Shown here: one piece after another, positions 37,524-55,385 of the stretch
Position numbering within the stretch: the first letter of the stretch is position 1
Layout of the letters: every line of letters begins with the position of its first letter
Position numbers and translations under genes: made by a program
Assembly: GCA_022508445.1 (NCBI GenBank)
Contig: JAFLVG010000004.1
Location: 1 to 55,611, forward strand
Direction of reading: 5' to 3'
Origin: Clostridiales bacterium
GTDB taxonomy: Bacteria; Bacillota; Clostridia; Christensenellales; Pumilibacteraceae
DNA: 55,611 bases
Notes under the pieces: model-generated
The model's input: the letters and a program-made list of their open reading frames with translations, nothing else
Told to the model about the DNA's origin: nothing
The model's database searches: none

Positions 37524-37552
37524 TTGACAATTGCAAGTAAATGTATTATAAT
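37524..37552 (+). promoter_or_regulatory. Consensus promoter of the first giant gene
   Basis: TTGACA (37524-37529), 17-nt spacer, TATAAT (37547-37552): the only perfect match to both boxes noted in the window. A leader of about 80 bases follows, with AAAGGG before the start codon. It suggests strong expression of the giant proteins. Confidence 0.88.
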
Positions 37553-37644
37553 TATCAAATGAATAATGTCGAATAGTATACACGTTCGGCATTATCTCAT
37601 ACTTTTTCGGCAAAACATTCATTTAAAAAGGGTTGATGATCGAT

Positions 37645-40600
37645 ATGAAGTCGACAAAACAATCAAAGAATCTTGCAGCACGTGCAGTGTCGATTGCTAT
37701 TAGCATAGCGATGTTTCTATGCGCCGTGTTTTCGTTTGTTTTCATCGGACATACGGAGACTTATGCGGCCGAGGCAAATAAGGAACATGTCGGCAGAAAT
37801 TCGGAAACCGTTAAGAACGAAAACGGAATACGCTTCGTTCAGGTAGCGGCAGGTGATGACTTTGCGATTGGTCTTACCTATGACGGCAAACTCTACGGTT
37901 GGAGCTTGCTCCCCGGTTCGAACGGCGGCAACACCGATGTAAGCACATCCACACTCGGCAGATACTATTCTACCGTGCCTACGGAGATTAAAGTCACGTT
38001 CAGGGCAGGCCCCGGAGGAAGCGGTACCAATATTTGGGCAAATACGCAGGGTGAAAACAACTACCATGCCGAGGTTGCAAGCGGAAATATAAAATACATT
38101 GCGGCAACTCGCACGACCGCGGCGTTCATTACGGATGACAATTTCATTTATACTTGGGGCAACGACTCCGGAAAGGAGGGCGTCACTCTCGGCGAGGCGG
38201 CTGCCGGCAATCCGAATTACTTATTGTTGCGCGATTATACCACGCGAGGCAATTGGTATGAGCCGTATATAATAGATTATCATTATTATATGCAGGGCGG
38301 AGTTGACGATTCTGCGTTCGAAAGACTTATTCCTACCAAGACCGGCAGAAATTTCAGCGAGATGTCTATCGCTGCCGGTGAGTATAACTATATAGTCGGT
38401 TTTAAAGACGGCGCTCAATTTTACACTTACGTTTGGGGTTCGCTGATGTACTCGGTACCCAATACGCAAGTGGATAACGACGGTTATGAGTATACCGCCG
38501 GTTCTTCGGGCAGTGTTTTGTACGGCGGACGCGTCAGGAACGTTTTTAAAACGCAATACGATAACGGCGGCGATAAAATGACGGTAGTTGCGGGCGGTTA
38601 CACCGTAGGGTATAACGGCTCTGGCGTGGGTTCTTCGTCTAACGCCACGACTTTGCAGCTTCGCGGCCGAAACGTGTTGACTTCGACGTATCCCTATACC
38701 AATACCGTAGCGGTAGCCGGCGCGGGCAGTTCGACGTTGAAGTACAGCCAAGGCACGGCATATAATGTAACGGGCGGTATTATCGGCGCCCATGCCACAG
38801 GTGCCGACATGGGACAACTCAGCAGTGGTCTTGCTTCTTACAATACCGAAGAATATTACGGCAGACAGCAAGGCAATTCTTCAATCACATACAATCAGAA
38901 TTCGTTTATCAATGTATATAATTCGAGAAATAGTGAGCTTACTCTAAAAAGTGCTGATGCTTCTACTGCCGCAAGGCAGGTGGTGCGCTTTGGCGTTTCG
39001 CTCGGCAACGACATAGGTTACGGAGTTTCGAGCGGCGCGCTTTACGCCTGGGGTGACAATGCCTACGGTCAGCTCACGAATGCCGTTACCGGAAATAAAG
39101 ATAAACCGCAATTGATTTTAAGCGGCAAAAGTATAGATTCGGTTGCGGCAGGCAAGCAGCTTTCCGCAGCATCCAAACCTTTCTACACGGCGGCAAGCTC
39201 TACTGGCAGTACCCTTGTGACAGAGGGCAGTGTGGCATTTAATACATCTGTTCAAAATGATCCTGCATTCATTTCGGGTGCCGTAACGGAAGACGGCGAG
39301 TTGTTTGTGTGGAGCAATAAAAATTCTACGCCCAAACAAATCAAATACGGCCTTAGCGATGAAGGTACGGCTACCGATGCGGATAAATTCATAGCGGTCT
39401 ATTCCGGTTACGGCAACTTTATATTCGCGATTACTAAAATAGGTAAGCTTGTACAAATTTCTTACGACGACAGCTCTTCCGGATATACTCAACTTATACA
39501 CGATAATTTCAAAAAGTATTCGACCGAGGGCACTCTCCAAGATGTTAAGTGGGAAGTGGCGGAGGAGAATATTGCTACGTTTACGGTAGTCGTTCCCACG
39601 GCGGGCGATGGCGTTTCCGATGACGATATAAAGTCTCCCAACCTCGGCTCCGCCACATTCTATATATGGAATGCGTTTACGACTGCCGACACTGTCATGA
39701 TCAACGGCAGAGAGAGTTCTTCGGGCTGGACGCAAGGCGTGTATGATTCGCTCGTAAGCAGAAACGACTACGGTGACATTTACCGAATCCTCAAAGAAGA
39801 TGACGCCGGCAAAAAGTTTTTGAGCGTCGATAATGAGGTGCAAAACCCGTCGTTCGCGCCGGTGTTCAAGTTCGACGGCGAAGTTATGACGCCCACGCAA
39901 CAGAAGAACATGTTTGAAATGGCGGTAGCAACCGACGCAAGCGGTAACGGCGTCGGTATCACGATAACGCCCAAACAATCGTCAAAGGGCAAGACCGTGA
40001 CGGTGGAGTTCTATATCGGACGCTACAATTGCAACGAGAATTTCAGTAGCTCTACCGACACTGCGCTGTATTACGATTACAAGCACTGCACGATTTCATT
40101 TGTTATAAAGGACACCCCGTCGGTAATTCACTATAAGGCATTCCGCGACGGAGAACCCGTCGAGGGCGACGACGGTGTGGGCAAGGGTAATTCGAATATA
40201 CCTCTTCTCGATCCCAATAACGATTACAATAAATTCTATTCGCTCGCTATTCAAGACGTTTCAAGCGGTATCGACAGCCTCATAAAGTATATTACGGGCA
40301 AAACGTCGGAAACATCCGCTCAGCCCGACTCCGACATTAAGGCGGCCGTTCTTGCTGCCGCAAACGCTGTCGAGCGCGACGCAGATAACAATAATAAGTT
40401 AATAAAGGGCGATCCCGGTTTCCCGAGCGATACCAAAATAAGCGCCGGCGATCTCACATATTATCTCGGCAGTGACGCGGCGTTAAAATACAGGAACGTA
40501 TATCAGTTCTTGTTCGAGGATCGTGATGCGGACAGAATAGTCATCAGCTCCCCGAGCGGCGGAATACTCGCTCAATCGGCCGCAAATGCAGATTTGAGAG

Positions 40601-43254
40601 CGGTTACCGCAACCATAGAAAGAATTAATATAATTGCGGATATTACCGCGTATTCGAGCAAGCTCAATCAGTCCATGATTGATGCGCTGGCGACCGATTT
40701 CGACAACAAGTATGGATTGTACGATATTTCCGTAGAAGAAAACGTGTTGAAATTCTCGTATGACGTGTTGCTTTTCGAAGCAAAGGGTGCGACCGGTCCG
40801 ATCAATTACAAAGATACGAAAGGGGTGGCGGACTATCAAACAACAAACACCAATCCGCGCCTTTTGGCTACTGTTACGGCGACAACGTATACTAATTACA
40901 ATACGGATTACGTTCCGCAACCGTCCGGCAGCGACCCCGTGATTCCCGCAAGAAACATCGCGGCAGTATACTCGATTCCGTCGCTTCGCATTAAAAACAA
41001 CGGTTCCATTGTTACGGGTAAGAACGACGGAAGCGGCAGTAATGCCATCACGGTAAGAGATGACACCGCTATCCCCGTAGGAACGTCTGTGCAGATTAAC
41101 CTGTCGGAATATGTCCCCATTTACGGAGATCAGATCAGATTCTCATACAACAACAGCACAAGTGCGGCGGAATACAATAACTTCATGAATCAGTTCGCCG
41201 ACGAAATGGGTATGGGTCTGACCACCAGAGTCGTGGAGCTTACCGGAACGTACATCAAAATAACCCCGACGACAGCTCAGCCTCTTGACTTTACCGTTAC
41301 AGTACAGCGGTTTACGAATATAACTAACAACACATATTTTGCTAACGGATATGAGGCGCCGGGAATACATCCCAACGAAACAATCACAATAAGGTTTATA
41401 TTCACAAAGATTCAAGGCTTCGAGCTTGTAAGACAGTCTACGGTTACTACGTATCTCATTACGAAGGAAGAAACCTTTGATATTCTCGGTAGGAAAGACG
41501 GCATCAAAAATCCTGCGGCGTTTGTAAACATAGTCGCCGATCAGAGATCGTTGGCTGCAATCGAGAACGATATAAGAATACACAATATTTCAAGCTCGGG
41601 AAGCGGCATATTCCGCTACTCCGAGATTGACCGCACGTCGTTCAGAATAATTCCCGTTTCTTCCGGTACGGGCGTTGTGCAGTTCACGGTAGTTGCTTAC
41701 GGTCAAACACTGACGTTCTCGCTCACGTTCAACGTTTCTTACATCACTACTATCTATGATGAAGTAAGGACGCAGAACGGCGTGTCACAAGAAGCGCGCG
41801 TTATAACAGTCGTAGAAGATCAAACTATCGATATCAGTGACATCAAAAACAAGCTCGAACAGGCAAACGACTTCGGCGATAACAATATTTCTAATTACAT
41901 CGTGCTTGTTAACGACATCGATAATCCGGGTGTAAAAGACTCCGAAAAGATTTTCAATGCGGTATACTTTACAGAAAGTCTCGATGAGAATGCTCCTCGT
42001 TTGCGTTCGTTGCCGTTTGTCAAAAACGTCATCATCGAAGATAGAGGAACGTCACATCCTTCGATAAGAATACTCGCGCAAGACACGTCGGTTACCGAAA
42101 GCGGATCTTACTATCTGCACATCCTTTTCACTAACGCATTTACAGATTCGACAGATACAAGCGCCAAATATGCCGATGCCCCCAACGGCACAATCCTTCA
42201 AGCTATATTGACCGTAAAGTCGGGCAGAGTTTCTTTGCCGAAATCGGTTGATATCGACGTTAAAAATCCGAAGAAAGATGGCAACTGGTGGACTACCGAG
42301 GGCTCGGGCATCGATATCAGAGTTATTATCAAGGTTGAAGATCTCGTAAACGACGTTCTTCCGGGTACCGATTACAGTGCAATTCTGATAACGGCTTCAA
42401 GTGAGGCTGCTCACTACTTCAACTATTCCATTTCCAAGGCTAAGGACAAAATAGAGATAGAGCCGCTTTACAATACGCCCGATACTTATAAGAAGGATGT
42501 CAAGCCGTATTCGCTCAACATAACGGTTTCGAGAGCCGGTTCGGACGAATACAACGTTCTTTCGTTGGACGTTTCCGTAAGAGGTATCTTGACAGAGCTG
42601 CCCGTTAAGACGGATGATGACGGTGTAATCGGTTACGCCAATATATGGCTGTACTCGTTCATCATAGTGTTCGGCGTCCTTACCGTAATATTTATAATCA
42701 GATTTATAATTTATTTCAGAAGACGCGCAAAGCAACGCGCCATCATCAAGCGCAATCAAGCACTTATTCGTATGCGTGACCGCATGCACAATAAAGCGAA
42801 TATTGCGTCCAAAGAGCAGGTTGTGCGTACAAAGATGAAGATGGACGATCCCAAGTACGCAAAATTGTTCAACGATATGCGCAAGAGCAAGGAAGAGGAG
42901 AGCGGCGTTGTGCTTGCAAACTCCGACCTTGCCGCAACCGCAAGTTCCAAGTCCAAGAAAAAGAAGAAGGGCGGCAAGAAGTCTGTTGCCGAGCTCAAAG
43001 CCGAGTTGGAGGCGAAAAAGGCAGCGTTCGCGGCCGCACAGCAGGGCGGTCAGCCCGTCAACCCGTTTGGCGGCGATGCTCCGTTCGGTGGTGAAGCTCC
43101 GTTTGGCGGCGAAGCACCGTTCGACGCCGCGGGCGGCGGGTTCGAGGCGCAGCCTATTGACGGCTTTGCCACACCCGTAGAAGATTTCGGTGCCCAAAAC
43201 ATCGATGGCAATGAAATCATATTCGATGCGTCCGATATCGGCGGCGGAATGTAA
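37645..43254 (+). CDS. Giant secreted membrane-anchored protein with RCC1-like repeats
   Basis: An 1869-residue protein of unknown function. Residues 1-42 are a signal peptide (hydrophobic core SIAISIAMFLCAVFSFVFI, likely cut near TYAA). Residues about 60-500 contain RCC1-like propeller repeats: VQVAAGDDFAIGLTYDGKLYGW, IKYIAATRTTAAFITDDN and YAWGDNAYGQLT are typical strands. The remaining exterior, to about 1660, is a series of beta-rich, probably Ig-like domains. One membrane helix (about 1666-1690) is followed by a basic stretch and a 170-residue cytoplasmic tail ending in PFGGEAPFGGEAPF-type repeats. Start codons at 37633, 37636 and 37645 are all possible; 37645 has the most plausible spacing from AAAGGG. 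The second giant gene follows immediately. Confidence 0.82.
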   Translation: MKSTKQSKNLAARAVSIAISIAMFLCAVFSFVFIGHTETYAAEANKEHVGRNSETVKNENGIRFVQVAAGDDFAIGLTYDGKLYGWSLLPGSNGGNTDVSTSTLGRYYSTVPTEIKVTFRAGPGGSGTNIWANTQGENNYHAEVASGNIKYIAATRTTAAFITDDNFIYTWGNDSGKEGVTLGEAAAGNPNYLLLRDYTTRGNWYEPYIIDYHYYMQGGVDDSAFERLIPTKTGRNFSEMSIAAGEYNYIVGFKDGAQFYTYVWGSLMYSVPNTQVDNDGYEYTAGSSGSVLYGGRVRNVFKTQYDNGGDKMTVVAGGYTVGYNGSGVGSSSNATTLQLRGRNVLTSTYPYTNTVAVAGAGSSTLKYSQGTAYNVTGGIIGAHATGADMGQLSSGLASYNTEEYYGRQQGNSSITYNQNSFINVYNSRNSELTLKSADASTAARQVVRFGVSLGNDIGYGVSSGALYAWGDNAYGQLTNAVTGNKDKPQLILSGKSIDSVAAGKQLSAASKPFYTAASSTGSTLVTEGSVAFNTSVQNDPAFISGAVTEDGELFVWSNKNSTPKQIKYGLSDEGTATDADKFIAVYSGYGNFIFAITKIGKLVQISYDDSSSGYTQLIHDNFKKYSTEGTLQDVKWEVAEENIATFTVVVPTAGDGVSDDDIKSPNLGSATFYIWNAFTTADTVMINGRESSSGWTQGVYDSLVSRNDYGDIYRILKEDDAGKKFLSVDNEVQNPSFAPVFKFDGEVMTPTQQKNMFEMAVATDASGNGVGITITPKQSSKGKTVTVEFYIGRYNCNENFSSSTDTALYYDYKHCTISFVIKDTPSVIHYKAFRDGEPVEGDDGVGKGNSNIPLLDPNNDYNKFYSLAIQDVSSGIDSLIKYITGKTSETSAQPDSDIKAAVLAAANAVERDADNNNKLIKGDPGFPSDTKISAGDLTYYLGSDAALKYRNVYQFLFEDRDADRIVISSPSGGILAQSAANADLRAVTATIERINIIADITAYSSKLNQSMIDALATDFDNKYGLYDISVEENVLKFSYDVLLFEAKGATGPINYKDTKGVADYQTTNTNPRLLATVTATTYTNYNTDYVPQPSGSDPVIPARNIAAVYSIPSLRIKNNGSIVTGKNDGSGSNAITVRDDTAIPVGTSVQINLSEYVPIYGDQIRFSYNNSTSAAEYNNFMNQFADEMGMGLTTRVVELTGTYIKITPTTAQPLDFTVTVQRFTNITNNTYFANGYEAPGIHPNETITIRFIFTKIQGFELVRQSTVTTYLITKEETFDILGRKDGIKNPAAFVNIVADQRSLAAIENDIRIHNISSSGSGIFRYSEIDRTSFRIIPVSSGTGVVQFTVVAYGQTLTFSLTFNVSYITTIYDEVRTQNGVSQEARVITVVEDQTIDISDIKNKLEQANDFGDNNISNYIVLVNDIDNPGVKDSEKIFNAVYFTESLDENAPRLRSLPFVKNVIIEDRGTSHPSIRILAQDTSVTESGSYYLHILFTNAFTDSTDTSAKYADAPNGTILQAILTVKSGRVSLPKSVDIDVKNPKKDGNWWTTEGSGIDIRVIIKVEDLVNDVLPGTDYSAILITASSEAAHYFNYSISKAKDKIEIEPLYNTPDTYKKDVKPYSLNITVSRAGSDEYNVLSLDVSVRGILTELPVKTDDDGVIGYANIWLYSFIIVFGVLTVIFIIRFIIYFRRRAKQRAIIKRNQALIRMRDRMHNKANIASKEQVVRTKMKMDDPKYAKLFNDMRKSKEEESGVVLANSDLAATASSKSKKKKKGGKKSVAELKAELEAKKAAFAAAQQGGQPVNPFGGDAPFGGEAPFGGEAPFDAAGGGFEAQPIDGFATPVEDFGAQNIDGNEIIFDASDIGGGM

Positions 43255-43268
43255 TGGAGGGCGCGAAA

Positions 43269-46200
43269 ATGCAAAAGTTTACAACTATTAAGCGTAATAT
43301 ATTACTGTGTGTCATGGCAGTTCTCGCCGTTCTTTTCGCGAGCTTTATTCTCATTCGTCAGAGCACCGCAAAAGCCGAGGGCAACAATGCCGGTAGCGGA
43401 TCTGTAAATACTATCGCAATATCGGTGGATGTCAACGGTAGATCGGCAAACAACACGCGCGACAATACTTCTCAAATCATCAATGATAATAACGCAAAGC
43501 ATTACAAAACGAGATATGTCACGGCAAACGCCGTCATGGGAAGAGTAAGACCGGACGGAGGCGATAACGCCGACTACACGTTTGTTCCGGAAACAATAGT
43601 CAACGGCAGCCGCTATTTTACCGTTGAGTTAGAGGGCGGCGGAAGCAACGATACTATCATAATAGAGGCACTTGCACTGTCAGAGCCTGCTCCCGCTAAT
43701 TTCTCTGTGCAACTATGGAAAAACAGAGATAACAGTTCTAAGGTTACCGCATATTTCACGGTTACGGTAACGGATACATTCGTTCCGCTTTTGGCAACCG
43801 AAGCCGGCGGATCGGAAAATATCACTGAAACAACGCTCTACGTCGGCAATCCGGTTAATCCCGATAATCCCACAGAGGAAACAACGCCTTCGCTTTCAAA
43901 CGAGGTGCATACGTCTATTTTGGATGTATATAACTATTCGAGCGTTACTATCGATTTGGGTACCCTTTTGCAGGGAAGAGCGCTTTACAGCGACAACGTA
44001 AAGGTTGTCAAAGACGCAACAAGCAATCATTTTTGGTCGATTAATTCCGTTACCAACTTTGAAATTCCGGTAGGGGGTGTGTCCTTCGTCGGTCTTACCG
44101 GTTTCGGACTCAAAAACCCCATTTATCGTTCGTCCACTCCGTATGCGCAAGGAGTTCGCCCCGTGCGCATTGCGCCTTCCGTCACCGGAAGATTGGAAGT
44201 CACTTCCGAAACGATAAACCGCTACAATGCACTTGTCGGCGATGATGCTCCGCACTTCTGGGAAGCTACGCACAGGCTTTCGGTCGAAATCAAAGAAATC
44301 GGCAATTCACAGTCGTCGTACCATATCTATATACCCATCAAGTTCATTCCTGCCAATCCGCAGGTTAAAATGATTCAGTCCAGTCGGTTGCGTTTGAACG
44401 CCACATCTAATTATACTTACAGATTGGCCGACAGGGCATACTTCGACGCAGACAACAATTCGACGATTGAAGCCAGCGATTACAACTCTATCATAATTCA
44501 GCCCGAAGACTTGATTGAGTATTCTTGTCCCACCACATACAGAAGCATGGCGTTTGTGGACGAAAATACCTTTTATGACGATTCGGCGTTGGACGTTGTC
44601 AAGATAACCGGCGATTTGCAACCCGACACCACAAACCCTCTTCCCACGGCGTACAAAATTACGGTGAAGAAGAATACCAATATCACCAACAGATCGTACA
44701 ATTGCACATTCAGTGTAATGTACGGGACAGGCACTGATAAAGCTGCGGACGTCAAAGACAAGGAAATTTCAATCGCAATAGAAATCTACGGCGGTTATGA
44801 TGTCCAATTCTCTCCGATTCAAGGCAAAAAGGCCGTTACGTATAATATCTTAACGTCCAGTGTTTTTGCCGATTTGCAAAGAGACGGTTACCAGCTTACC
44901 GACGCGCACTCAAACAACACTAAGGTGCTTGACGCGACGCTCGAAAACAATGTTCTCACGCTTACTCCCAATGTTGACAATATAAAAGGTCAAGCGACTG
45001 TTTCCATCAGGCTGACATTTACAAACAACAACAACCAAACGATTACTTTCGATTCGAGAGATGTCAATATCGACGTAAATGCGGGTAGCTTGTTTGCCAG
45101 GTTCGAAGATTGGCAGGCGTGGCTCATTATTGCCGGTGCCGCAATAGGCGGTATCATAGTGATACTGATCATCGTTTGGATATTCATTCATTCCATTTCC
45201 AAGCATAAGCAAGACGAGCTCGCAACGCAAGCGCCGGTATCGTCGTACATCATCAAGCTCAATTCGACGATTGCGGCAAACCAGGCTCAACAGCGAATGC
45301 AAAATCAGGCCATATCGCAAATGAGCTCGCAAATGTTGCTTGGCGCAGGCGCTGCGAACAATCCTGCCGCGCCTCCGCCCGATACGCTTCAACTTGCGAC
45401 CGGTATGCCTTCCGCTCCGGCAACACCTTCTACTCCTGCGGCCCCTGTCATGAGCGAGCCGCAAGCGGCGATTCCGCCCGATCAAGGCGAAGATCTCGAA
45501 GCGTTGATTGCCAAGTACATTTCGGACGAAGAGCTTTTGGAACGCATTTTCACAGAAAAGTACGAGCCGAAGGGCATGATTCGCCGCACGTTCTTCAAAT
45601 CCAAGGATTTGCAGGCGCGCGAGCTCGAAAAAGAAAAGAAACGCATTATCGATCGCTACAAATCGCCCATGCCTATGGACGAGGCGATTATGAGCGAGAA
45701 CGAGGCAAAGAACAACGGTCAGTCCTCGTCGCCCGAGGAAGCGGCGCCGCAGACCTCCGAACCTCAGACAGTCATGCAGTCGTTCGAGCTCGATTTCGAT
45801 CCCGACGCACCGTTGTACGTCGAAGAGCAGAGCGCGCCCGACGAATTCTCCGAAGAGAAGATCGATCTCGATTCTTCGCCCGAGGAAAGCACGCTCAAAG
45901 ATACGGAGCGCCGCAACAAGATAATCATGAAAGAGCTTGCCGAGCTTCGTTCGCGTATCAACAAGGTTCAAGCCCAAATCGATCGCGCAAGCTCGCTCGA
46001 ATCAGAGCTTCGCGAGAAGATCGAAAAAGCGGAAAACGACGATTCGCAGTACTCTAAGGATATCGAAGAGCTCGAATTCAAGCTCGCTTCGGCGAAGAGC
46101 AAAGATAAAGATCGCATCACTCGCGACATCGGTATCAAGGAAGAGAAGAAGAAGCGCAATCTCGAAGACCTCGACAAATTGCGTGCCCAGCTCGACGCCT

Positions 46201-48452
46201 TGCTCGGAAACAGCGAGAAGCTCAATACCGTCAGCTCGCAACTCAACGATACTCAAACTCAAAAGATCGCGGAGCAAGAAAAAATCGCTGCCGAACTCGA
46301 AAAGGCAAAAGCCGATTACGATGCGTACATGGATCGACTTGCCAAAGTTCAAGCGCGTCAAGAGCTTGAAGCCAAGGTCGAAGGGCTTATGCCGCTACTC
46401 GTTGATGTAAACAACACAGATTACGAGTTGCGCAAAATCGAGTCCGAACACGAAAAGCAGGAGACCGAGCGCGCATCGCTCAAAGCCACAGTCGCCGCCG
46501 CCAAGTCGCATATTTTGGGGGCTACCGACTTTGACGTCATCAACGATCTCAACACGCAGATTGCTGATGCAAACGCACGGTTGTCCGAGCTCGACAAAGA
46601 AGTTACCAAAACGACAAAACGCAAATCCGAACTCAATATCGAGTTCAACGCTCAACGCCGCAAGGCTAACGATTTCGTCGAAAAGAACGATATTCCGGTC
46701 GAAGAGGTCGTTAAAGCCGAAGATAAGGTCATCGGCGACATTGAGTTTGAGCTTCTCAAAGCCGCGCGCGAAAAAGATCGCGAGGAAGCCGAACAAGCAG
46801 TTGCAAACGCACAAGCGGTGTTCGAGGATCTCAACGCTTCGTCCAGCGATGTGACATTTATCGCCATGGAAGTTGCGGCAAATATCAAGGCGTTGGAAGA
46901 GGAGATCGAAGCTGCGCAGGCCGAGCTCGACGCTGTCAACGCGCAGATGGAAAGCGCAACAGAAGACGAAAGACTTCTCCTTATGGTCGATCAAGGCGAC
47001 AAGTCCGATAAACTCGAAGAGCTTAAATCCAGGCTTGAACAAGAGAATGTCGAAGGCACAAAACGCAAGATGGAAGCCCAGAGCGATCACGACGCCCAGC
47101 TCGAAGAGGCACGTCAACATCTCGACGAAGTCAACGCCGAATTCGAGAAAGCGTGTGCGGCTTGCGACGACCTTATAAACAATACCGATCCGCTCGACCT
47201 CATTGTTTCGGGCAGTGGTATTATCAGTAAGGATCAGAAGAAGCTCGAAGCCGAAAATTACAAGAAGCAGCTCGAACGTTCAAAGAACGAGATCGAACAG
47301 GCAAGACTCGCGGCGCAAATGGCTCAGCAAGAAGCCGAGCAAACCCGTGCCGATGCGGAACGTGCGGCAGAGCAAGCGCGTATGGAAGCTGAGCAAGTTC
47401 GCTTGGAAGCGGAACGCGCGGCAGAAGAAGCTCGCTTAGAGGCGGAACGCGCGGCAGAAGAAGCTCGCATGGAAGCGGAACGCGCAGCAGAAGAAGCTCG
47501 TTTAGAAGCGGAACGCGCGGCAGAAGAAGCCCGCTTGGAAGCAGAGCGTGCGGCAGAGGAAGCTCGCATGGAAGCGGAACGCGCGGCAGAAGAAGCCCGC
47601 TTGGAAGCAGAGCGTGTTGCGCAAGAGGCGATAGAGCGCGCAGAGCAAGCTCGTTTGGAAGCGGAGGAAAAGGCACGTGCCGACGTAGAAGCCGCGGAAC
47701 GCGCCAAGCAGGAAGCCGCAGACGCTCTTGCCGCCGAGGCGGAAGAAGCGAAGCGCAAAGCTCAAGAAGAATCCGAAGAAGCCAAACGTTTGGCAATGGA
47801 AGAGAGTGAAGAAGCGAAGCGCAAAGCCCAGGAAGAAATAGATGAAATGCGCCGCAAAGCGGAGGAAGAGGCGGAAGCCAAGCGTTTGGAAGAAGAAAAC
47901 AAGCGCAAGGAAGACGAAGAACGCCAGAAAGCCGAGAACGAGCGCAACGAAGCTATTGCAAAGAAAGTCGCTATGCGCAAAGAACAGATCGTAGCAATCC
48001 GCAACGATATGAAAGAGCTTAAAGGCGACGAAGACGCGAAACATTTGCGCGAAAGACTGTACAACATTCAGCTTGCCTTCGACGAAGACGAACGCGGTTC
48101 TACGGAGCTCATGGACTTCTACAACAAGACCATGGACGATATTCAGAACAGCGGTGAGATTGCAAGGTTAAAAGCCGAAAATGCCAAGAAACCTCAGCGC
48201 ATTGTTCGCAAGGTCACAGAGCGTGTAAACCGTATTCCCAAACGTCGTCCCGGTGCCGGCAAAAACGGAGCGCGTATGAAAGCAAGACCGGGCGCACGTC
48301 CGGGAGCAAGACCCGGCGCGAGACCGGGGGCAAGACCGGGCGCACGGTCGGCAGCAAGACCGGGAGCAAGACCGGGCGCACGTCCGGGAGCAAGACCCGG
48401 CGCGAGACCGGGCGCACGTCCGGGAGCAAGACCGCCCAGACCGCGGCAATAG
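43269..48452 (+). CDS. Giant transmembrane coiled-coil protein with basic Pro-Gly-Ala-Arg tail
   Basis: A 1727-residue protein of unknown function. Residues 1-36 are a signal peptide, 37-612 a beta-rich exterior without Cys clusters, and 617-643 a membrane helix (WLIIAGAAIGGIIVILIIVW). The cytoplasmic part is about 1080 residues: a Pro/Gln-rich linker, a small domain near 745-800 (EALIAKYISDEELLERIF), and from about 876 an almost continuous coiled coil. This includes six perfect 11-residue repeats (LEAERAAEEAR type, about 1379-1444). The last 55 residues are tandem RPGA units, strongly basic. GGAGGG at 43256-43261 selects the ATG at 43269 over the ATG at 43254 that overlaps the upstream stop. 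It is organised like the first giant protein but with a far larger interior. Confidence 0.82.
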   Translation: MQKFTTIKRNILLCVMAVLAVLFASFILIRQSTAKAEGNNAGSGSVNTIAISVDVNGRSANNTRDNTSQIINDNNAKHYKTRYVTANAVMGRVRPDGGDNADYTFVPETIVNGSRYFTVELEGGGSNDTIIIEALALSEPAPANFSVQLWKNRDNSSKVTAYFTVTVTDTFVPLLATEAGGSENITETTLYVGNPVNPDNPTEETTPSLSNEVHTSILDVYNYSSVTIDLGTLLQGRALYSDNVKVVKDATSNHFWSINSVTNFEIPVGGVSFVGLTGFGLKNPIYRSSTPYAQGVRPVRIAPSVTGRLEVTSETINRYNALVGDDAPHFWEATHRLSVEIKEIGNSQSSYHIYIPIKFIPANPQVKMIQSSRLRLNATSNYTYRLADRAYFDADNNSTIEASDYNSIIIQPEDLIEYSCPTTYRSMAFVDENTFYDDSALDVVKITGDLQPDTTNPLPTAYKITVKKNTNITNRSYNCTFSVMYGTGTDKAADVKDKEISIAIEIYGGYDVQFSPIQGKKAVTYNILTSSVFADLQRDGYQLTDAHSNNTKVLDATLENNVLTLTPNVDNIKGQATVSIRLTFTNNNNQTITFDSRDVNIDVNAGSLFARFEDWQAWLIIAGAAIGGIIVILIIVWIFIHSISKHKQDELATQAPVSSYIIKLNSTIAANQAQQRMQNQAISQMSSQMLLGAGAANNPAAPPPDTLQLATGMPSAPATPSTPAAPVMSEPQAAIPPDQGEDLEALIAKYISDEELLERIFTEKYEPKGMIRRTFFKSKDLQARELEKEKKRIIDRYKSPMPMDEAIMSENEAKNNGQSSSPEEAAPQTSEPQTVMQSFELDFDPDAPLYVEEQSAPDEFSEEKIDLDSSPEESTLKDTERRNKIIMKELAELRSRINKVQAQIDRASSLESELREKIEKAENDDSQYSKDIEELEFKLASAKSKDKDRITRDIGIKEEKKKRNLEDLDKLRAQLDALLGNSEKLNTVSSQLNDTQTQKIAEQEKIAAELEKAKADYDAYMDRLAKVQARQELEAKVEGLMPLLVDVNNTDYELRKIESEHEKQETERASLKATVAAAKSHILGATDFDVINDLNTQIADANARLSELDKEVTKTTKRKSELNIEFNAQRRKANDFVEKNDIPVEEVVKAEDKVIGDIEFELLKAAREKDREEAEQAVANAQAVFEDLNASSSDVTFIAMEVAANIKALEEEIEAAQAELDAVNAQMESATEDERLLLMVDQGDKSDKLEELKSRLEQENVEGTKRKMEAQSDHDAQLEEARQHLDEVNAEFEKACAACDDLINNTDPLDLIVSGSGIISKDQKKLEAENYKKQLERSKNEIEQARLAAQMAQQEAEQTRADAERAAEQARMEAEQVRLEAERAAEEARLEAERAAEEARMEAERAAEEARLEAERAAEEARLEAERAAEEARMEAERAAEEARLEAERVAQEAIERAEQARLEAEEKARADVEAAERAKQEAADALAAEAEEAKRKAQEESEEAKRLAMEESEEAKRKAQEEIDEMRRKAEEEAEAKRLEEENKRKEDEERQKAENERNEAIAKKVAMRKEQIVAIRNDMKELKGDEDAKHLRERLYNIQLAFDEDERGSTELMDFYNKTMDDIQNSGEIARLKAENAKKPQRIVRKVTERVNRIPKRRPGAGKNGARMKARPGARPGARPGARPGARPGARSAARPGARPGARPGARPGARPGARPGARPPRPRQ
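47403..47633 (+). repeat. 33-bp tandem repeats coding 11-residue coiled-coil units
   Basis: Six consecutive 33-bp units from 47403 to 47600 encode [L/M]EAERAAEEAR, and a seventh, degenerate unit runs to 47633. Codons vary between units (GCG/GCA, CTT/CTC, TTG/TTA) while the protein is nearly invariant, so the peptide repeat is under selection. An 11-residue period is a hendecad, giving a slightly right-handed or straight coiled coil. Confidence 0.9.
48285..48440 (+). repeat. 12-bp tandem repeats coding the Arg-Pro-Gly-Ala tail
   Basis: About twelve units of the type AGACCGGGCGCA / CGTCCGGGAGCA encode RPGA, interrupted once by RSAA. A higher-order unit, starting GCAAGACCGGGCGCACGTCC, occurs twice about 85 bases apart. 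The region is much richer in G+C than the rest of the gene and could change length by slippage. Confidence 0.9.
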
Positions 48453-48552: not shown

Positions 48553-51500
48553 ATGGACAATCAGGACAAGACAACTTTTTCGTTGGACGATGAAGTCGTA
48601 GAGGAAGAAGTTATCGAACGCGACGAAGAGTACGAGGACGACGAGGACTACGACGACGAGTACGATGACGAGTACGATGATGAAGAGTACGACGAAGAAG
48701 ACTACGGCGACGAGGATTATGACGACGGCTACGACGACGATTACGACGATGGCGGCTACGACGATCCTCTGAACAAGGTTCTCGACGAAATCGCAGAGCT
48801 TAAACGCGGAATGGTTCCGGCTACTGTGCAACAGCAACAGCAGCAGCCTTTGCCGCCGATTATGCCTCCGCAGTATATCTATCAACCGACTGCTCCGCCT
48901 GCGAGCAGCGAGGTTGTTATATACAACGAGATTGCTCGGTTGCGTGATGAGCTTGCGAAGAACCAAAGCAGCCTTGAAATGCAAAAAGAGTTAACTCGGC
49001 TTAAAGACGATATGGCGCGCGACCAAAAGTTCGCCGAATCGCAATATAATGCCGAAATCCAACGGTTGCAGAGTCGTATTGACGATTTACTAAAAAACGC
49101 GTCAAGCCCTCAAGGTGATTATTTGTCCGATCAAGAATCGGCACACGTTGAGGGCGCAAACTCTACATTGGATTTTGATAAGATTCTCTCTGTAAACGAG
49201 GCAGTTCTTCGCGCTATGCGCGACAGTGACGCTCGATTGCAAGCGGACATCAGTCAGCTCAAAAAGCAGCTTGACGAGATTCCGTCGTTAAAAGAACTTA
49301 ACGGCGCGGTTTCGGCATTCAAAAAAGCGGCGAGCAATATCGGTGGCTTGAACGCGGAAACGCTCGATAAACTTTCGGGTGATATCGGCACACTTCTTAC
49401 TGCACTTGATGAGAAGGAAGTAATGTCCGCGCCTGCGACACCCACTGCCAATGCCCCTAAAAAGGCTTCGCCGGCTATCGATGCAAGCGAGCTTTTGCGC
49501 CAGCTTTATGACATCAAAACAGTCCTCGGCAACGTTTCCGAGGCTGCGGTAAAACGCACGCAGGTTTTGTCCGACCTCGTAAACGATTTCAAGAAAGTCA
49601 ATTTCATTGTTCATTCGCATTCTGCTTTGTACAAAGATAAGCTTGCAGCCGTATACGGTTACGCGAAGAAGCTCAATGAGTGCAATGAGCAAGACGCTGT
49701 TGATTTTGTCAACGCGACAAACGATATTATCACAGAGCTTGCGTTGCAACCGCTCACGCGTTCTACATTTGCCGACCTCGTGGCGTACTGCTCGGAGAGC
49801 GGTGCGGCGTCGATAACCACGGCTATGCGTGACAGCGCAGAGCGTTTCTTCAACCTCAAAGAAAAGCTTGCCTCTTCACCGGTAAGTGCTTATGCCGACA
49901 GCTTGACGGATATCAATTCTGCAATCAATATTTTGCAGAATAACAGAAACGAGTCCGAAAACGCAAAGACTGTTGCTATGGTAATCGAAGCACTCGCCGA
50001 TGAAAAGCGTGACGAAGACGCTATCAAAGCGGTAGTTACCAGCTTTGTCGACGTCTCGGCTTCCGAAGTTGTGGATTTTCCGCTTATAGACGGTCCAAAG
50101 ACGTATACGCCCGTGCATACCGCTGCCGATGAGAGCATAATCTCAAAGCTTAACGAGCTTAAATCTACATTACTCGACAGCATGTCCGCGCAAATGTCCG
50201 CAATCGAGCAAGCGAGTAGCAAAATTGCGACGGAAGTGACACAGGCGCAGGCACAAGCACAGGCGCAGGCACAGCCTGCGGCCGAAGAACCCAAGCCCGT
50301 TGCGGAAGAGCCGCAAGCGCAGCCGGTTACTTTGGATATAGACGATGACAAGGCCGCCCAGTTGCTCGCCGCAATGGAAGAGCTTAAAGCTTCGCTCGGC
50401 GTAGTTACGGACGCATCCGATGTCGCTAGTGCGCTCGGTGCTATCCGCGGCAACTACGTCGAAATATCCGAAAAGCTCGTCGATATTTCCGAAAAAATTC
50501 AGCAGCCCGTTTCCGTTCAAGTCGATTCGGAAGCGCCTGCAATGTCCGATGAGGAAAGACAACAGGCGCTTGACGACCTAGCTTACATTCGCGCTAAGCT
50601 CGACGAACACGACGAGTTCATCAACCAGATAGGCGACATCCGTGCGGATATAGTCAGCTTGAATGCACAATCCGAGGTTGTCGACCAGACGGAGCAAATA
50701 AATTCGGTTATTGCCGAAATCAACGCTCAGTTTGATAAGCTGTATGAAGACATTTCCAATGTGCTTATCGAATCGGAGTCCAATATCATTGCTCGCATGG
50801 GCGAGAACGGCGAAAACAACACGCTCGATCTTATCGAGGCCGCAAAGAGCGAAATACTCGCAGAAACGCAGGCTATAAGAGACTCGTTGCTAACCGTTTC
50901 CGAAAATTCGTCGGCGCCGCTTCTTACCGACTCGGTAGAGCAGCTTCGTGCCGATATTGCCGCATTCTCCGAGCTCATCACGAGCAACACCGACGTGGCT
51001 ACGGCGGATAGGCTTAAAATACTCGACGATGTAGCTTTCTTGCGTGAGCAAGCCGAGCTTGCGCTCACGGAGAGCGAGCAGGCCGAGGCGGCTGCAACTT
51101 CTGCCGACGGCGATAAGATGATCGGGTATCTCGAAGATATCTCATCGCAAGTAACTAATCTCGCCACCGTTGCGGAAGACGTACTGTCAACCAAGGAAAC
51201 GGTAGGCGTCATTAACGAAAACTTATCGGTCGTATCCGATAACATTATGACGGTTGCCGACAATATGACGGCGATCAACAATAATATATCGGCGGTCGCC
51301 GACAGTGTTACGGCACTCGGTGACAGTGTTGCGACACTCGGCGATACGGTCAGGCCCATTGCCGAAAATGCGCTTGCTTCACGCGACGCGGCGACAGCAG
51401 CGCTGGACGCAATAACTCCCATCGCAGAAGATGTGCTTGCTTCACGTGATGCGGCGACAGCAGCGCTGGACGCGTTAACGCCGATCGCAGAAGACGTGCT

Positions 51501-54500
51501 TGCTTCACGCGACGCGGCAACTGCGGCACTCGACGCATTAACGCCCATAGCCGAACAGCTCAATGTCATTATCGACAGACTCGATTCGGCAAATACCGCA
51601 CAGGATTTTGCGGAAGAGGGTGAAAATGCCGAAAATGAGGGCGCGACGGCAATTATGTCCGATGAGGAATTGGTCGAGCTTAAAGACGCGCTCAATACTA
51701 TTCTCGACACACTCCCGTTGTTCCCGCAAGCGGATGACGTAGTTACTATACGCGACAACACGTACTCCATTCTCGATACACTTGCGCTCATGCCGCAATC
51801 GGAAGACGTATCTGTCACACGCGACAATGTTTCGGCAATGCTCGATATATTGACGTCGCTTTCCGACAGTATCGACGCTGTTCTCGGTACAGGTGGTAAT
51901 CAGCAGGTCGCAGAGGATATTACGGCGCTTCGCGAGGCTGTCGACGCCACGAGCGAGGACGTTAAGTTCATTCGTCAGAAATTGGAAGAGACGCCGCAGT
52001 CCGAAGATCAAATCGAAGACCTTGCGAATATCATGCAAGATCTCGGTCTTGTCCTCGACAAGATAGAAGAGTATGAGCGTACCGCTGTTGCCAATAAACA
52101 AGAGATTATCGAAGCCGTAAGCGGTATAAGAGAAGAAGTACACATCAGCACGCTCGACGAGACAATGTCTGCGGAGGGCATGGACGCCGAAACGCGCGAC
52201 GCGCTTGTAGGCGAGATTGCGGATATTCGTGAGCGCCTTGTAAATATCGAGAGCGCTACGCAAGCGGTCAGCGAGCTTAACGCCGTATCGCTTGACGGTA
52301 TCAGCGAGAAAATCGCAGAGCTTCAAGCCGCGCTCGAAGAACGCGTAACTTCGGCGGAGCCTGCGCAAGCAGTAGACTTGTCCGGCGAAAACATGCAAGC
52401 CCTTATCGAAGAGCTTTCGGCTATTAAAGAAAAACTCGATGCCGGTACCGAATACGACACAGTCGAGGAAATTCTTGCGCTTCGCGAAGATGTCAAAGCC
52501 GCTCGCATAGTCGATCAAGACGAAATATCGAGCGAACTCGAAGCCATCAAGAACGAGCTTGCCTCCATTTCTTCGGGCAACATTCTCGATGAGATTCGTG
52601 CATTGCGCGAGGACATAGTCAATCTTCCCGGCGGCGACGGTGCATCCGCTCCGACCGAAGGCGAGATCAATCTCGTACTCAACGAGATAGTGTCTTTGCG
52701 CGACGAAGTGTTTGCTTTCAAAGACGAAGTACTCAATGCAACCGCAGATATCAATCCTCAGCAGACAGGCGAAGAGACGGAGCATGTCGAGGGCGACGAA
52801 ATCAATACGATTCTCGACGAGCTTACGGCATTGCGTGCCGATCAGACCGCGCTCACCGACAATCTCGACGAGCTCAAAGACATGATCAGCCGCAGAACGA
52901 GCATTTCTCATGCCGAAGGCGAAGCACAAGATGGTGCTAATAATGCCGAGGGTGAGCTCAATGTCGTTCTCGATGAAATCATCAATCTTAAAAACGATAT
53001 AGTCAGAATAGAAGAAAGTGTTGGCAGCGACAGACTCAATGCAATTTCCGAACAAGTGGATGACATTCGCGCCATCATAGAAGAGCTTCGCGGAGTCGAA
53101 TCCGCAGAGAGCGCGGTGGACGAGCAAGCCGTTGCTGTTGACCTTACTCCCATAATGGAGCAATTCGAAGCGGTCAACGCCGCCCTCAACGATATTAGGC
53201 TTAACCGTGAAGTGGTCGGAGCAGGCGTCGAGAATGACGTGGTGCAAAGCACGCTTGACGAGCGTTTCGATGAGCTTCGTGACGATATCGACGATATCAA
53301 GCAGACGATAGAAGACCTTGCCATACCGCAACAAGATTATTCCAACGAAATTGCGGAGCTTCGCGCGGAAATCGCGGAACTCAAAGCAGAGAACGAACAG
53401 CTCAAACAGGCGAGCGCCGATGCGCTCGGATCGGATATTGCCGAGCTCAAAGACCTTGTACGCAATATGGCGCTTTCGTTTACTCCTGCCGCCGCGACTG
53501 ACGACAGCGCGTATACCGCGCTCATTGATGAAATTCGCGGTCTCAAAGAGCAGGTCGCCGCAACGGCGCAACAATCGCTTGCGGCTACTTCCGGTGCTTT
53601 GAACGAAGAGACTTTGCAGGCAATACGCGACGCACTCAACGCTCAACCCGAAGAGCAGGTATTTGCCGATGAGCTTGCGGAAATACGCGACGAAATCGCA
53701 CAGCTTCGTTCGCTCACCACTTTGACGGCAGAGAACGGAAGCAGTGCGGAAGTTGCGGCAATGCGCGACGAGCTTGCCGAACTCAAAGAGATGCTTTCGG
53801 GCTCCGGTCACTTAATGGGTGTTGCCGAGGACCTTACCGCTATCAAGAGCGATGTTCAGACCTTGAAAGAAGAGCCTGACCTCGGCGTTATGAACGAGAT
53901 TCTTGCGCTTCGCGACGAGTTCCAATCCTTGCGCGAGCAGATTGAGGATGTCAAGCGCATAGCAGGTGAAACGAATAGAGAGGCTGACGATTCGCTCATG
54001 AACGAGGTTCAGTCTTTGCGCGATCAGCTGTTTGCCATCAGCATGGCCAATGTGAACGATCCTGCGTCCGGTGAGTCCAATTACGAGAGCTACAACAATA
54101 TAATACTCGACGAGATTGCATCGTTGCGCGACCAAGTCAACACGGCAGGCAGTTCAATCGATTTGTCCGCCGTAACCGACGAGTTCAACGAATTGAAAGC
54201 CACGCTCGAAAAGCGCGAGGCAAAATACGACGAGCTTGCCGCGCGCGTTGCTCAGCTCAATAACAACACGGCAAACGACAAGATTCTCGAAGAGCTTGCA
54301 AGCCTGCGCACCGATATGGCTAACCAACGCGACGCAGACTTGACGACGCTCAACTTCATGTCCGAAATGGCGCATCTTGTGGAGCGGCAGAATCAATACC
54401 TCACAGAAAATGCCGGAACGAATATCAGCGACGAAATAGAAAGCCTCAAAGCCGAAATTGCGTCGTCCGATGCAGTTGCCGAAGAGGTGGCAAAGCTACG

Positions 54501-55335
54501 CGAGATTATGACTCAATCGGGTAATTCCTCCGATAACGATACCATTTTGAACGAGCTTGCCGAATTGCGCGAAGATTTACAACGCGAAAAGCCGAGCCGT
54601 GGCAACGAGCTCATTCTCGACGCAATCGAACGCCTCCGCAACGAAGTAACAATGATTGCAGAGCGCGAGCAAGCTCGCGATATGCAATCGGATGCCGGAC
54701 TTTCCGACTCGCTGTCCGATTTAAGAGAACAGCTCAACGAGATTGCAGGCATTGTAGAGCCGACGGAAAAGAAGCATGCGACGGAAAAATCGACCGTGAA
54801 TAAGCCTGCAACTGGCGCAAAACGCGGCAGAAAACCCGGACCGAAGAGCAAGTCAAACGCCGCGGCTAATAGAGCTTCCACCGCAAGCAAATCCACAACG
54901 GGCGCAAAACGCGGCAGAAAGCCCAAGGCGCAAGCCGAACCTGTTGCCGTAATGCCCGAAGTAAAGACCGAACCGTCTGTTACGGATTTAGACGCACAGA
55001 TTGATGAGCAGTTGGCTTACCTCGGCGGTGACGACGAAATGTCGCTCAACCTCCAAGCCGTGACCACGGCAGACGCCATGGACGTTGCAGACAAGCTCGC
55101 AAAGCAAGTCGCAAACAAGCTGATAATGGAACAGCTCGTGGAACAGCTCGGCGACGGCGGTGTCAGCGAGGAACGCGTCGATGAAATTCTCCGCGACATC
55201 CTTCCGCAAGAGTTCACTACGATAGCGGAAACCGAAGCGTCCGATAAAGTAAGACGTCTTGCAAATCAACTTGTACTCGATAAGCTTCGTTCGCGCCTGA
55301 ACGCTCAACGCACTTCCGATGACGACGAAGAATAA
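48553..55335 (+). CDS. Giant cytoplasmic coiled-coil protein with acidic N-terminus and AT-hook-like motifs
   Basis: A 2260-residue protein with no signal peptide or membrane helix. Residues about 11-73 are almost only Asp, Glu and Tyr. A Gln/Pro-rich linker follows to about 115. The rest is predicted helix and coiled coil, with a recurring motif of the form ILDEIxxLRDE seen at least a dozen times (for example VLNEIVSLRDEV, IILDEIASLRDQ), and a 21-residue repeat near 935-997. Near the C-terminus two copies of TGAKRGRKP (KRGRKP at 2090-2095 and 2119-2124) resemble AT-hooks, followed by a helical domain of about 100 residues. GAGGA precedes the ATG at 48553; an ATG at 48538 lacks an SD. I infer a cytoplasmic scaffold that may contact DNA. 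Confidence 0.82.
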   Translation: MDNQDKTTFSLDDEVVEEEVIERDEEYEDDEDYDDEYDDEYDDEEYDEEDYGDEDYDDGYDDDYDDGGYDDPLNKVLDEIAELKRGMVPATVQQQQQQPLPPIMPPQYIYQPTAPPASSEVVIYNEIARLRDELAKNQSSLEMQKELTRLKDDMARDQKFAESQYNAEIQRLQSRIDDLLKNASSPQGDYLSDQESAHVEGANSTLDFDKILSVNEAVLRAMRDSDARLQADISQLKKQLDEIPSLKELNGAVSAFKKAASNIGGLNAETLDKLSGDIGTLLTALDEKEVMSAPATPTANAPKKASPAIDASELLRQLYDIKTVLGNVSEAAVKRTQVLSDLVNDFKKVNFIVHSHSALYKDKLAAVYGYAKKLNECNEQDAVDFVNATNDIITELALQPLTRSTFADLVAYCSESGAASITTAMRDSAERFFNLKEKLASSPVSAYADSLTDINSAINILQNNRNESENAKTVAMVIEALADEKRDEDAIKAVVTSFVDVSASEVVDFPLIDGPKTYTPVHTAADESIISKLNELKSTLLDSMSAQMSAIEQASSKIATEVTQAQAQAQAQAQPAAEEPKPVAEEPQAQPVTLDIDDDKAAQLLAAMEELKASLGVVTDASDVASALGAIRGNYVEISEKLVDISEKIQQPVSVQVDSEAPAMSDEERQQALDDLAYIRAKLDEHDEFINQIGDIRADIVSLNAQSEVVDQTEQINSVIAEINAQFDKLYEDISNVLIESESNIIARMGENGENNTLDLIEAAKSEILAETQAIRDSLLTVSENSSAPLLTDSVEQLRADIAAFSELITSNTDVATADRLKILDDVAFLREQAELALTESEQAEAAATSADGDKMIGYLEDISSQVTNLATVAEDVLSTKETVGVINENLSVVSDNIMTVADNMTAINNNISAVADSVTALGDSVATLGDTVRPIAENALASRDAATAALDAITPIAEDVLASRDAATAALDALTPIAEDVLASRDAATAALDALTPIAEQLNVIIDRLDSANTAQDFAEEGENAENEGATAIMSDEELVELKDALNTILDTLPLFPQADDVVTIRDNTYSILDTLALMPQSEDVSVTRDNVSAMLDILTSLSDSIDAVLGTGGNQQVAEDITALREAVDATSEDVKFIRQKLEETPQSEDQIEDLANIMQDLGLVLDKIEEYERTAVANKQEIIEAVSGIREEVHISTLDETMSAEGMDAETRDALVGEIADIRERLVNIESATQAVSELNAVSLDGISEKIAELQAALEERVTSAEPAQAVDLSGENMQALIEELSAIKEKLDAGTEYDTVEEILALREDVKAARIVDQDEISSELEAIKNELASISSGNILDEIRALREDIVNLPGGDGASAPTEGEINLVLNEIVSLRDEVFAFKDEVLNATADINPQQTGEETEHVEGDEINTILDELTALRADQTALTDNLDELKDMISRRTSISHAEGEAQDGANNAEGELNVVLDEIINLKNDIVRIEESVGSDRLNAISEQVDDIRAIIEELRGVESAESAVDEQAVAVDLTPIMEQFEAVNAALNDIRLNREVVGAGVENDVVQSTLDERFDELRDDIDDIKQTIEDLAIPQQDYSNEIAELRAEIAELKAENEQLKQASADALGSDIAELKDLVRNMALSFTPAAATDDSAYTALIDEIRGLKEQVAATAQQSLAATSGALNEETLQAIRDALNAQPEEQVFADELAEIRDEIAQLRSLTTLTAENGSSAEVAAMRDELAELKEMLSGSGHLMGVAEDLTAIKSDVQTLKEEPDLGVMNEILALRDEFQSLREQIEDVKRIAGETNREADDSLMNEVQSLRDQLFAISMANVNDPASGESNYESYNNIILDEIASLRDQVNTAGSSIDLSAVTDEFNELKATLEKREAKYDELAARVAQLNNNTANDKILEELASLRTDMANQRDADLTTLNFMSEMAHLVERQNQYLTENAGTNISDEIESLKAEIASSDAVAEEVAKLREIMTQSGNSSDNDTILNELAELREDLQREKPSRGNELILDAIERLRNEVTMIAEREQARDMQSDAGLSDSLSDLREQLNEIAGIVEPTEKKHATEKSTVNKPATGAKRGRKPGPKSKSNAAANRASTASKSTTGAKRGRKPKAQAEPVAVMPEVKTEPSVTDLDAQIDEQLAYLGGDDEMSLNLQAVTTADAMDVADKLAKQVANKLIMEQLVEQLGDGGVSEERVDEILRDILPQEFTTIAETEASDKVRRLANQLVLDKLRSRLNAQRTSDDDEE
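51355..51543 (+). repeat. 63-bp tandem repeats (21 residues) in the third giant gene
   Basis: Three units at 51355, 51418 and 51481 encode PIAE[N/D][A/V]LASRDAATAALDA[I/L]T, with a truncated fourth start at 51544. DNA identity between units is very high, so the duplication is recent or maintained by gene conversion. Confidence 0.9.
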
Positions 55336-55350
55336 TAATGTAGACTAATA

Positions 55351-55385
55351 AAACAGCGTACCGAACAAAACGGTACGCTGTTTTT
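55351..55385 (+). terminator. Strong terminator after the third giant gene
   Basis: ACAGCGTACCG (55353-55363) and CGGTACGCTGT (55371-55381) form an 11-bp stem, extended by A/T pairs, with a 7-base loop and a run of five T. It closes the giant-gene locus. Confidence 0.93.

Follow-up and report, generated by a model that had tools for sequence, protein, structure and literature searches.

Several described systems share features with the locus that we analyze here. ZapG/YhcB is a small protein. In the description given in PMC8163987, ZapG/YhcB and other small membrane coiled coils of the divisome combine a transmembrane (TM) helix with a coiled coil and link the Z-ring to septal wall synthesis; they are gamma-proteobacterial and are not known to have an exterior or a partner like the soluble protein P0003 discussed below. 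EzrA, from the Bacilli, is a spectrin-like regulator of the FtsZ ring (as outlined in PMC4243239). The attachment organelle of Mycoplasma pneumoniae (P1/P40/P90, P30, HMW1-3, and P65) is outlined in PMC4923136 as surface proteins connected across the membrane to a core of large proteins, both coiled-coil and disordered; the core protein HMW2 is a coiled coil of 1818 residues, and formation of the organelle is coupled to division.

The locus lies on contig C34 of a 1.78 Mb genome in 45 contigs from the genus Anaerocaecibacter (placed by NCBI in the Pumilibacteraceae, Clostridia), within a stretch of 55,611 nucleotides that we will term the window. It encodes three giant proteins, P0001, P0002, and P0003. 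By analogy, the Mycoplasma attachment organelle appears to be the closest counterpart of this giant form, and EzrA, as a membrane link of the ring, appears to be the closest functional counterpart of the short forms found in other genera. Unlike the organelle, the locus sits among wall-synthesis genes in the division and cell wall (dcw) cluster, has RCC1 repeats outside, and shows no sequence relation to the organelle proteins over cut-offs. Unlike EzrA, the giant P0002 has a signal-like N-terminus, a large exterior, a 1000-residue interior, and an Arg-rich tail, and it has a separate soluble partner in P0003. By the profile tests that we made, neither system appears to be a relative.

A giant operon within the dcw cluster

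The setting of the three genes is as follows.

23552..32886, + strand: upstream dcw genes (mraZ, rsmH, an ORF at 24962-25711, a spoVD-type PBP, murE, mraY, murD, and ftsW)
35036..37278, - strand: a serA-type dehydrogenase gene and serC, divergent neighbours at the 5' edge of the site
37524..37552, + strand: consensus sigma-A promoter of the operon, TTGACA-17-TATAAT
55350..55386, + strand: intrinsic terminator, made up of a hairpin (55353-55381) followed by Ts

Three consecutive ORFs on the + strand (37633-43254, 43254-48452, and 48538-55335) encode P0001, P0002, and P0003, which have 1869, 1727, and 2260 residues if translated from ATG codons at 37645, 43269, and 48553. GGAGGG or GAGGA lies directly 5' of the ATG codons at 43269 and 48553. 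Directly beyond the downstream end of the window are murA, a gene for an FtsQ-type POTRA protein, ftsA, ftsZ, spoIIGA, and sigE. Thus, the giant operon splits the dcw cluster, with ftsW on one side and murA on the other. This position is the strongest clue to the role of the system, and it falls outside the coordinates of the earlier note on this DNA.

The linkage to mur and fts genes is conserved, with G023, G035, and G066 as exceptions. Among the 18 genomes with giants and a readable downstream flank, murA is next to P0003 or at most three ORFs away in 16 (our own, G001, G004, G006, G009, G016-G020, G033, G183, G207, G267, G306, and G345), with intervening ORFs in G001, G004, G006, G018, G019, and G306. 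(G003, G013, and G014 are outside this count because the contig ends 0.4-3.1 kb past P0003 without reaching murA, and other contig-cut loci were treated likewise.) The other two, G023 and G035, carry giants away from murA; in G023, P0003 is directly followed by spoIIGA-sigE, and a different contig carries murA, ftsQ, and ftsA. We also compared six genomes from outside the family (G037, G048, G041, G038, G052, and G066). In the first four, ftsW adjoins murA, and the interval contains no further listed ORF of 150 residues; G052 is arranged differently at ftsW/murA.

The promoter is the sole 12/12 site within 36000-55611. A sigma-A-type site that matches at 11-12 of 12 positions, with 17-nt spacing, is found upstream of P0001 in 20 of the 21 relatives for which 100 nt or more of upstream sequence were available (in G035, it is 301 nt upstream). 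The sole relative without such a site is G023, whose upstream stretch spans only 138 nt. As a control, 4 of 300 mononucleotide shuffles of our own upstream region reached 11. The promoters in the relatives point to strong vegetative expression, as judged from their match to the consensus. At the other end, the 70 bases 3' of P0003 fold at −22.3 kcal/mol, and the terminator stands between the giant operon and murA. (The scan of 36000-55611 did not list the hairpin; pairing of the T run with A residues upstream is the probable cause.) So, the description in the earlier note of three neighbouring same-strand genes, served by the best promoter in the window and closed by a strong terminator, is borne out by the ORF listing, the start codons, and these signals.

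Two membrane ORFs lie between ftsW and the serA-type gene (32946-34932); they match no Pfam or NCBIfam family, and they are kept next to the giant locus in several relatives and also appear in some genomes with short forms. Among the tested genes between ftsW and serA, a common location of murG, there was no MurG match.

Architecture of the three proteins

Topology was assigned from a hydropathy scan, without a signal-peptide predictor. P0001 has these features.

37645..43254, + strand: P0001, with a signal-like N-terminus, RCC1 repeats, a long exterior with beta-type composition, one TM helix, and a conserved basic cytoplasmic tail (ORF, Pfam, hydropathy)
37789..39171, + strand: RCC1 repeats, given as the span of Pfam matches (PF13540 and PF00415 over cut-off, PF25390 below)
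42655..42711, + strand: TM helix, residues 1675-1693 counted from 37633 (hydropathy), then YFRRRAKQRAIIKRNQ
42712..43251, + strand: cytoplasmic tail, the best conserved part of the protein (alignment A2)

The RCC1 assignment rests on two families, RCC1_2 (PF13540, E = 2.1e-13, 50.1 bits against a cut-off of 22) and RCC1 (PF00415, E = 6.3e-10, 39.9 bits against a cut-off of 21.7). Immediately next to the TM helix on its inner side, P0001 is strongly positive, both in our protein and in its relatives. The repeats in its exterior recall the RCC1-repeat surface proteins of Bacillota. P0001 differs from the known proteins of that kind in its conserved TM helix and basic cytoplasmic tail and in its operon with coiled-coil partners.

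P0002 has these features.

43269..48452, + strand: P0002, with a signal-like N-terminus, an exterior with beta-type composition, one TM helix, a cytoplasmic part of over 1000 residues with coiled coil, and an Arg-rich tail (ORF, hydropathy, periodicity)
45126..45182, + strand: TM helix, residues 625-643 counted from 43254 (hydropathy)
45183..45743, + strand: conserved juxtamembrane stretch, APVSSYIIKLNSTIAANQAQ ... ISDEELLERIFTEKYEPKGMIRRTFFKSKDLQ (alignment A1)
47886..48257, + strand: C-terminal helical module (A7), common to short homologues
48258..48449, + strand: Arg-rich (RPGA)n tail (net charge of +21 in the last 70 residues)

Neither P0002 nor P0003 has a Pfam or NCBIfam match over the curated cut-off; for P0003, there are SMC-type matches that are all sub-threshold. 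Two side observations concern P0002. On contig C41 of G000 (L063, 986-12025) is a gene for a type I membrane protein of 3679 residues with an ALK/LTK glycine-rich domain, and several relatives have similar proteins of about 3700 residues. Its cytoplasmic tail and P0002 both carry a motif of the type LMLGxGxxNPxPxxLQLAxG. Also, three genomes of genus g2 (L211 6735-8402, L212 8066-9613, and L213 7951-9510) encode a second, soluble protein of 515-555 residues that consists of the P0002 C-module followed by a histone-like Lys/Arg-rich tail.

P0003 has these features.

48553..55335, + strand: P0003, a soluble helical/coiled-coil protein with the widest distribution among the three (ORF, hydropathy, homologues)
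48571..48777, + strand: Asp/Glu/Tyr-rich head (net charge of −40 in the most acidic 60 residues)
49450..50232, + strand: helical domain A5, present in giant and short forms (AlphaFold2 model)
50569..54645, + strand: repeat region, in which a helical motif of the type ILDEIxxLRDE occurs 17 times (mean of 0.5 in shuffled sequences; the pattern was picked after reading the sequence)
54790..54987, + strand: basic stretch, rich in Lys, in which the AT-hook-like motif KRGRKP occurs twice
55015..55332, + strand: C-terminal domain, A4 (71% mean column identity)

The A5 model has ten helices (mean pLDDT of 83.5, pTM of 0.68) and no assignable fold. The repeat motif, again with the post hoc pattern, occurs 10-23 times in the giants that we counted and 0-9 times in the short forms and G066. 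The KRGRKP motifs, which resemble AT-hooks, are confined to part of genus g1.

Most of the architecture proposed earlier for these proteins holds. For P0001 and P0002, hydropathy supports an exterior, one membrane helix, and a cytoplasmic tail, as each has an N-terminal hydrophobic segment and one internal helix; the RCC1-like repeats outside are confirmed by Pfam. In P0002, the claim of over 1000 cytoplasmic coiled-coil residues is consistent with heptad-type periodicity above that of composition shuffles across residues 650-1660 (weak in 1340-1560). P0003 was described as wholly cytoplasmic coiled coil, and indeed, the hydropathy scan found no TM segment and the periodicity exceeds that of shuffles across residues 110-2090. 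A beta-rich nature of the exteriors is plausible from composition: they are rich in V/I/Y/F/T/W and show no heptad periodicity.

Conservation and charged ends

Within the genus, the exteriors of P0001 and P0002 have a mean identity to our protein of 37-43%, versus 64-84% for the tail, interior, head, and C-domain. More specifically, the values are 73% for the TM helix and tail of P0001 (residues 1666-1800); 71% for the juxtamembrane stretch, 64% for the coiled coil, and 84% for the C-module (1560-1660) of P0002; and 82% for the head, 65% for the distal coiled coil, and 83% for the C-domain of P0003. Two parts of P0003 are hardly better conserved than the exteriors, namely the A5 domain at 46% and the mid coiled coil at 49%; its basic stretch is at 39%.

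Three charged ends (the P0003 head, the P0002 tail, and the P0003 basic stretch) are present or absent together. In giants, the P0003 head has a net charge of −34 to −42 in 60 residues, with 7-12 Tyr; the last 70 residues of P0002 are at +16 to +24; and the basic stretch is at +10 to +19 in 19 of the 19 proteins with a complete enough C-terminal region (the incomplete P0003 of L038, L045, L051, L056, and L137 are left out). In non-giants (genera g8, g12, and g16 and family f19), the head is at −9 to −26, the basic stretch is at +8 or below, and, where there is a P0002-like gene, its tail is at −5 to 0. (For P0003, we left out L055, which has a stretch of N, and a 206-residue fragment of L060, and G054 was not entered; for P0002, we left out the incomplete rows L048, L050, L052, L054, L055, L062, and the first ORF of L039.) This correlation is largely phylogenetic. 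Because most giants are related, G066 (family f31), with a head of −29, a P0002-like tail of +13, and a basic stretch of +12, is the only partly independent case of the charge pairing.

Distribution and short forms

The N-terminal 700 residues of P0002 were found in 25 of 61 genomes: all 20 from the same genus (our own included) and 5 of the 41 others. With this part of P0002 present in all 20, the observation is not due to chance. The A1 profile (TM helix and juxtamembrane stretch of P0002) matched 34 of 74 family genomes in 7 of 18 genera (G022 is weak, E = 9e-4). A2 (P0001 tail) and A4 (P0003 C-domain) each matched 15 of 297 genomes of the order. They have 14 of these in common, all from the family; the remaining match is to G310 in the case of A2 (41 residues, E = 5e-4) and to G066 in the case of A4 (E = 2.6e-8). 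A7, built with short forms included, matched 16 of 297. The A5 profile, which was built with the short forms of G034, G030, and G026 included, had matches in 29 of 396 order genomes; 25 of them are family genomes, from nine genera, and the other 4 belong to family f19. In a sample of the class, our own genome alone matched A5 among 391. A5 had no match in 8 of the 33 family genomes listed, including G326 and G339, although giants are present elsewhere in the genera of these two.

P0001, P0002, and P0003 are consecutive in 20 of 26 loci, and the other six (L048, L050, L052, L054, L061, and L062) are cut at a contig end. Two further loci (L136 and L137) also hold all three genes side by side. 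The earlier note asked whether the genes stay adjacent across related genomes, and in these loci they do. In G011, the P0001-P0002 pair is present twice, on contigs C83 and C109; contamination of 7% is the likely cause.

In other genera, shorter genes occupy the same site, between serC and murA. There, a membrane coiled coil of 636-708 residues is paired with a soluble partner of 636-841 residues (672 and 723 in G034, with three more genes before murA; 708 and 841 in G238; 636 and 636 in G030). These pairs, from g12 and g16, comprise a membrane-anchored P0002-like protein and then a P0003-like one, without an exterior and without an RCC1 protein. Five g8 genomes have a P0003-like gene (983 residues in G026, 1134 in G170, 1030 in G278, 1031 in G330, and 1093 in G327). 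Because serC is directly upstream of this gene in G170, G278, and G327, these genomes carry nothing else of the set at the site; in G026, the contig starts at P0003, and in G330, a 673-residue ORF that is dissimilar to our queries precedes it. A1 had no match in the five g8 genomes, nor did A2 or A7 in the three that were in those samples (G026, G170, and G278). Family f19 has a P0003-like gene of 1207 residues in G137 and G081, where serC is upstream, and of 1170 residues in G054, where it is contig-cut; these genes are near a convergent murA, and no ftsZ was seen on the short f19 contigs. Also, beside serC, G102 has genes of 431 (TM), 652 (TM), and 398 residues, with a weak A5 match in the last only (E = 2e-5). 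Finally, in G027 (same family, 97% complete), the site is empty, with serC directly beside murA.

As shorter homologues occupy the same site, including the soluble protein on its own, the core of the system is the cytoplasmic protein P0003. In most carriers, the gene for P0003 or its shorter homologue has serC on one side and murA-ftsQ-ftsA-ftsZ on the other. The three genes are not an obligatory unit: single genes, which the earlier note itself named as contrary evidence, occur in g8 and f19. P0003 stands without the other two in g8 loci L201, L202, and L204 (serC directly upstream) and in f19 loci L197 and L198; L175 and L203 are less certain.

In G066, the P0003-like protein has 1775 residues, and its P0002-like companion, of 1172 residues, has the KVTER motif and an RPGA-type tail and lacks a TM helix or exterior. 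The two genes are on a different contig from ftsZ. Beside the P0003-like gene is one for an 1842-residue protein (L117, 774-6302) with a zinc-ribbon-like N-terminus, a long coiled-coil-like middle, four C-terminal hydrophobic segments, and no Pfam match.

The short P0002 resembles EzrA in its N-terminal TM helix (at residue 17 in G034, 50 in G030, and 21 in G102, by hydropathy and sequence), and in its cytoplasmic helical part, and the gene for the short P0002 is near ftsA-ftsZ. In 15 genomes, including G000 and short-form carriers, EzrA (PF06160) was over its cut-off in none. Sub-cut-off matches lie inside P0003 of G020 (E = 3.7e-4) and in G027 (E = 7.6e-4), and EzrA is absent among the families with E up to 0.1 for eight short-form proteins.

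A proposed role at the division site

With moderate confidence, we propose from sequence and gene context that the locus encodes a coiled-coil scaffold of the division and wall machinery, linked to the membrane and expressed in vegetative cells, which in Anaerocaecibacter and its relatives would form a trans-envelope chain. P0002 would hold P0003 against the membrane close to the division ring, with the Arg-rich tail of P0002 docking on the Asp/Glu/Tyr-rich head of P0003 by opposite charge and Arg-Tyr contacts. Through its repeated helical motif, P0003 would be multivalent and could build a submembrane layer. If the tails of P0001 and P0002 bind this layer, then the outer domains would be patterned by the division machinery or would report wall geometry to it. 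We infer these steps, from the recruitment of P0003 to the coupling with the outer domains, from context, and the tails and domains could act on quite other partners.

Division as such does not depend on the system: the site is empty in G027, and 8 of the 33 family genomes gave no A5 match (assembly gaps may explain part of this). The earlier note suggested a scaffold for shape, division, polarity, or adhesion. The dcw site supports division. MreB is present in all 15 genomes tested, so nothing indicates that the usual shape machinery has been replaced by the system.

We know of no described system with this architecture, in agreement with the earlier note; our searches yielded no described counterpart, and those in openly licensed PMC papers listed none whose title describes these proteins. 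The proteins match no described family beyond the RCC1 repeats, and the three-part chain has no counterpart known to us. The kind of job that the system does may prove familiar. This undescribed family of some gut Clostridia varies widely in size among related genera: at one extreme is a single soluble protein of about 1000 residues, and at the other is a trans-envelope chain of three proteins with about 5850 residues in total. The size series is a natural set for asking how the two sides of a membrane are coordinated in division. The question is open to test because a carrier of the giant form, Anaerocaecibacter muris CLA-AA-M11 (G016, from the same genus as our genome), has been isolated, from a mouse.

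Alternative explanations

The anatomy of the giant form is like that of the M. pneumoniae organelle, with a surface protein, a membrane link, disordered segments, and a coiled-coil core, so the locus might instead encode an attachment or polarity organelle whose internal core arrays surface proteins; the dcw site would then reflect duplication of the organelle at each division. The P0002-like tail of G066 even resembles Cytadhesin_P30, below threshold (E = 2e-5, 24.8 bits versus a cut-off of 40), but this match sits in low-complexity Pro/Gly-rich sequence, and searches of Pfam and NCBIfam with P0001-P0003 at E up to 0.1 gave no mycoplasma organelle family. Also, forms that lack an exterior altogether still occupy the dcw site, which makes adhesion unlikely as the core role, and we consider an organelle unlikely overall. 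Those same forms bear on the idea that the exteriors are a surface coat or decoy, evolving fast through contact with phage or host and fixed by an anchor in the cytoplasm; the dcw site would then provide nothing more than strong and constant expression. The exteriors do diverge fast while the tails are kept, and the genome has another giant type I membrane protein with the P0002-type tail motif. However, P0003 and the short P0002 exist at the site without exteriors, and over 3000 cytoplasmic residues far exceed the needs of an anchor, so this explanation seems very improbable.

A scaffold of the asymmetric septum or the engulfing membrane during sporulation would account for the nearness to spoIIGA and sigE, which follow ftsZ (and in G023 directly follow P0003), and clostridial dcw genes can be specialized for sporulation (as reported in PMC10693644). 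But the sigma-A-type promoter is kept in nearly all of the relatives, and ftsZ-spoIIGA-sigE also occurs with short forms only (L200, L202, and L204). Bacillus subtilis has the same gene order. Hence, nearness to sigE is not specific, and a sporulation structure seems improbable. A further reading, which we hold to be distinctly unlikely, is a bacterial counterpart of a nucleus-to-surface bridge: outer RCC1/beta domains, a membrane helix, a charge-zipped joint of two giant coiled coils, and a putative AT-hook end that would grip the chromosome. If true, a single dcw operon would mechanically couple the wall, the division ring, and the nucleoid. A LINC-type chromosome-envelope tether would have a DNA-binding tail on its cytoplasmic member. 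In the giants, the basic stretch of P0003 is at +10 or more in 19 of the 19 proteins with a complete enough C-terminal region. A DNA-specific role for it is weakened because only some members of the genus have the AT-hook-like motifs; a general basic tail is kept.

Other genes in the window

Two other regions of the window may concern the cell surface. At 5527-9654 are genes for a PEP mutase with a cytidylyltransferase-like domain, a TPP enzyme, and a fused NTP-transferase/Fe-alcohol dehydrogenase; this looks like a set for phosphonate synthesis (of the hydroxyethylphosphonate type), perhaps for surface decoration. At 17921-20179 is a gene for a 752-residue protein with Listeria-Bacteroides repeats, which is probably another surface protein.
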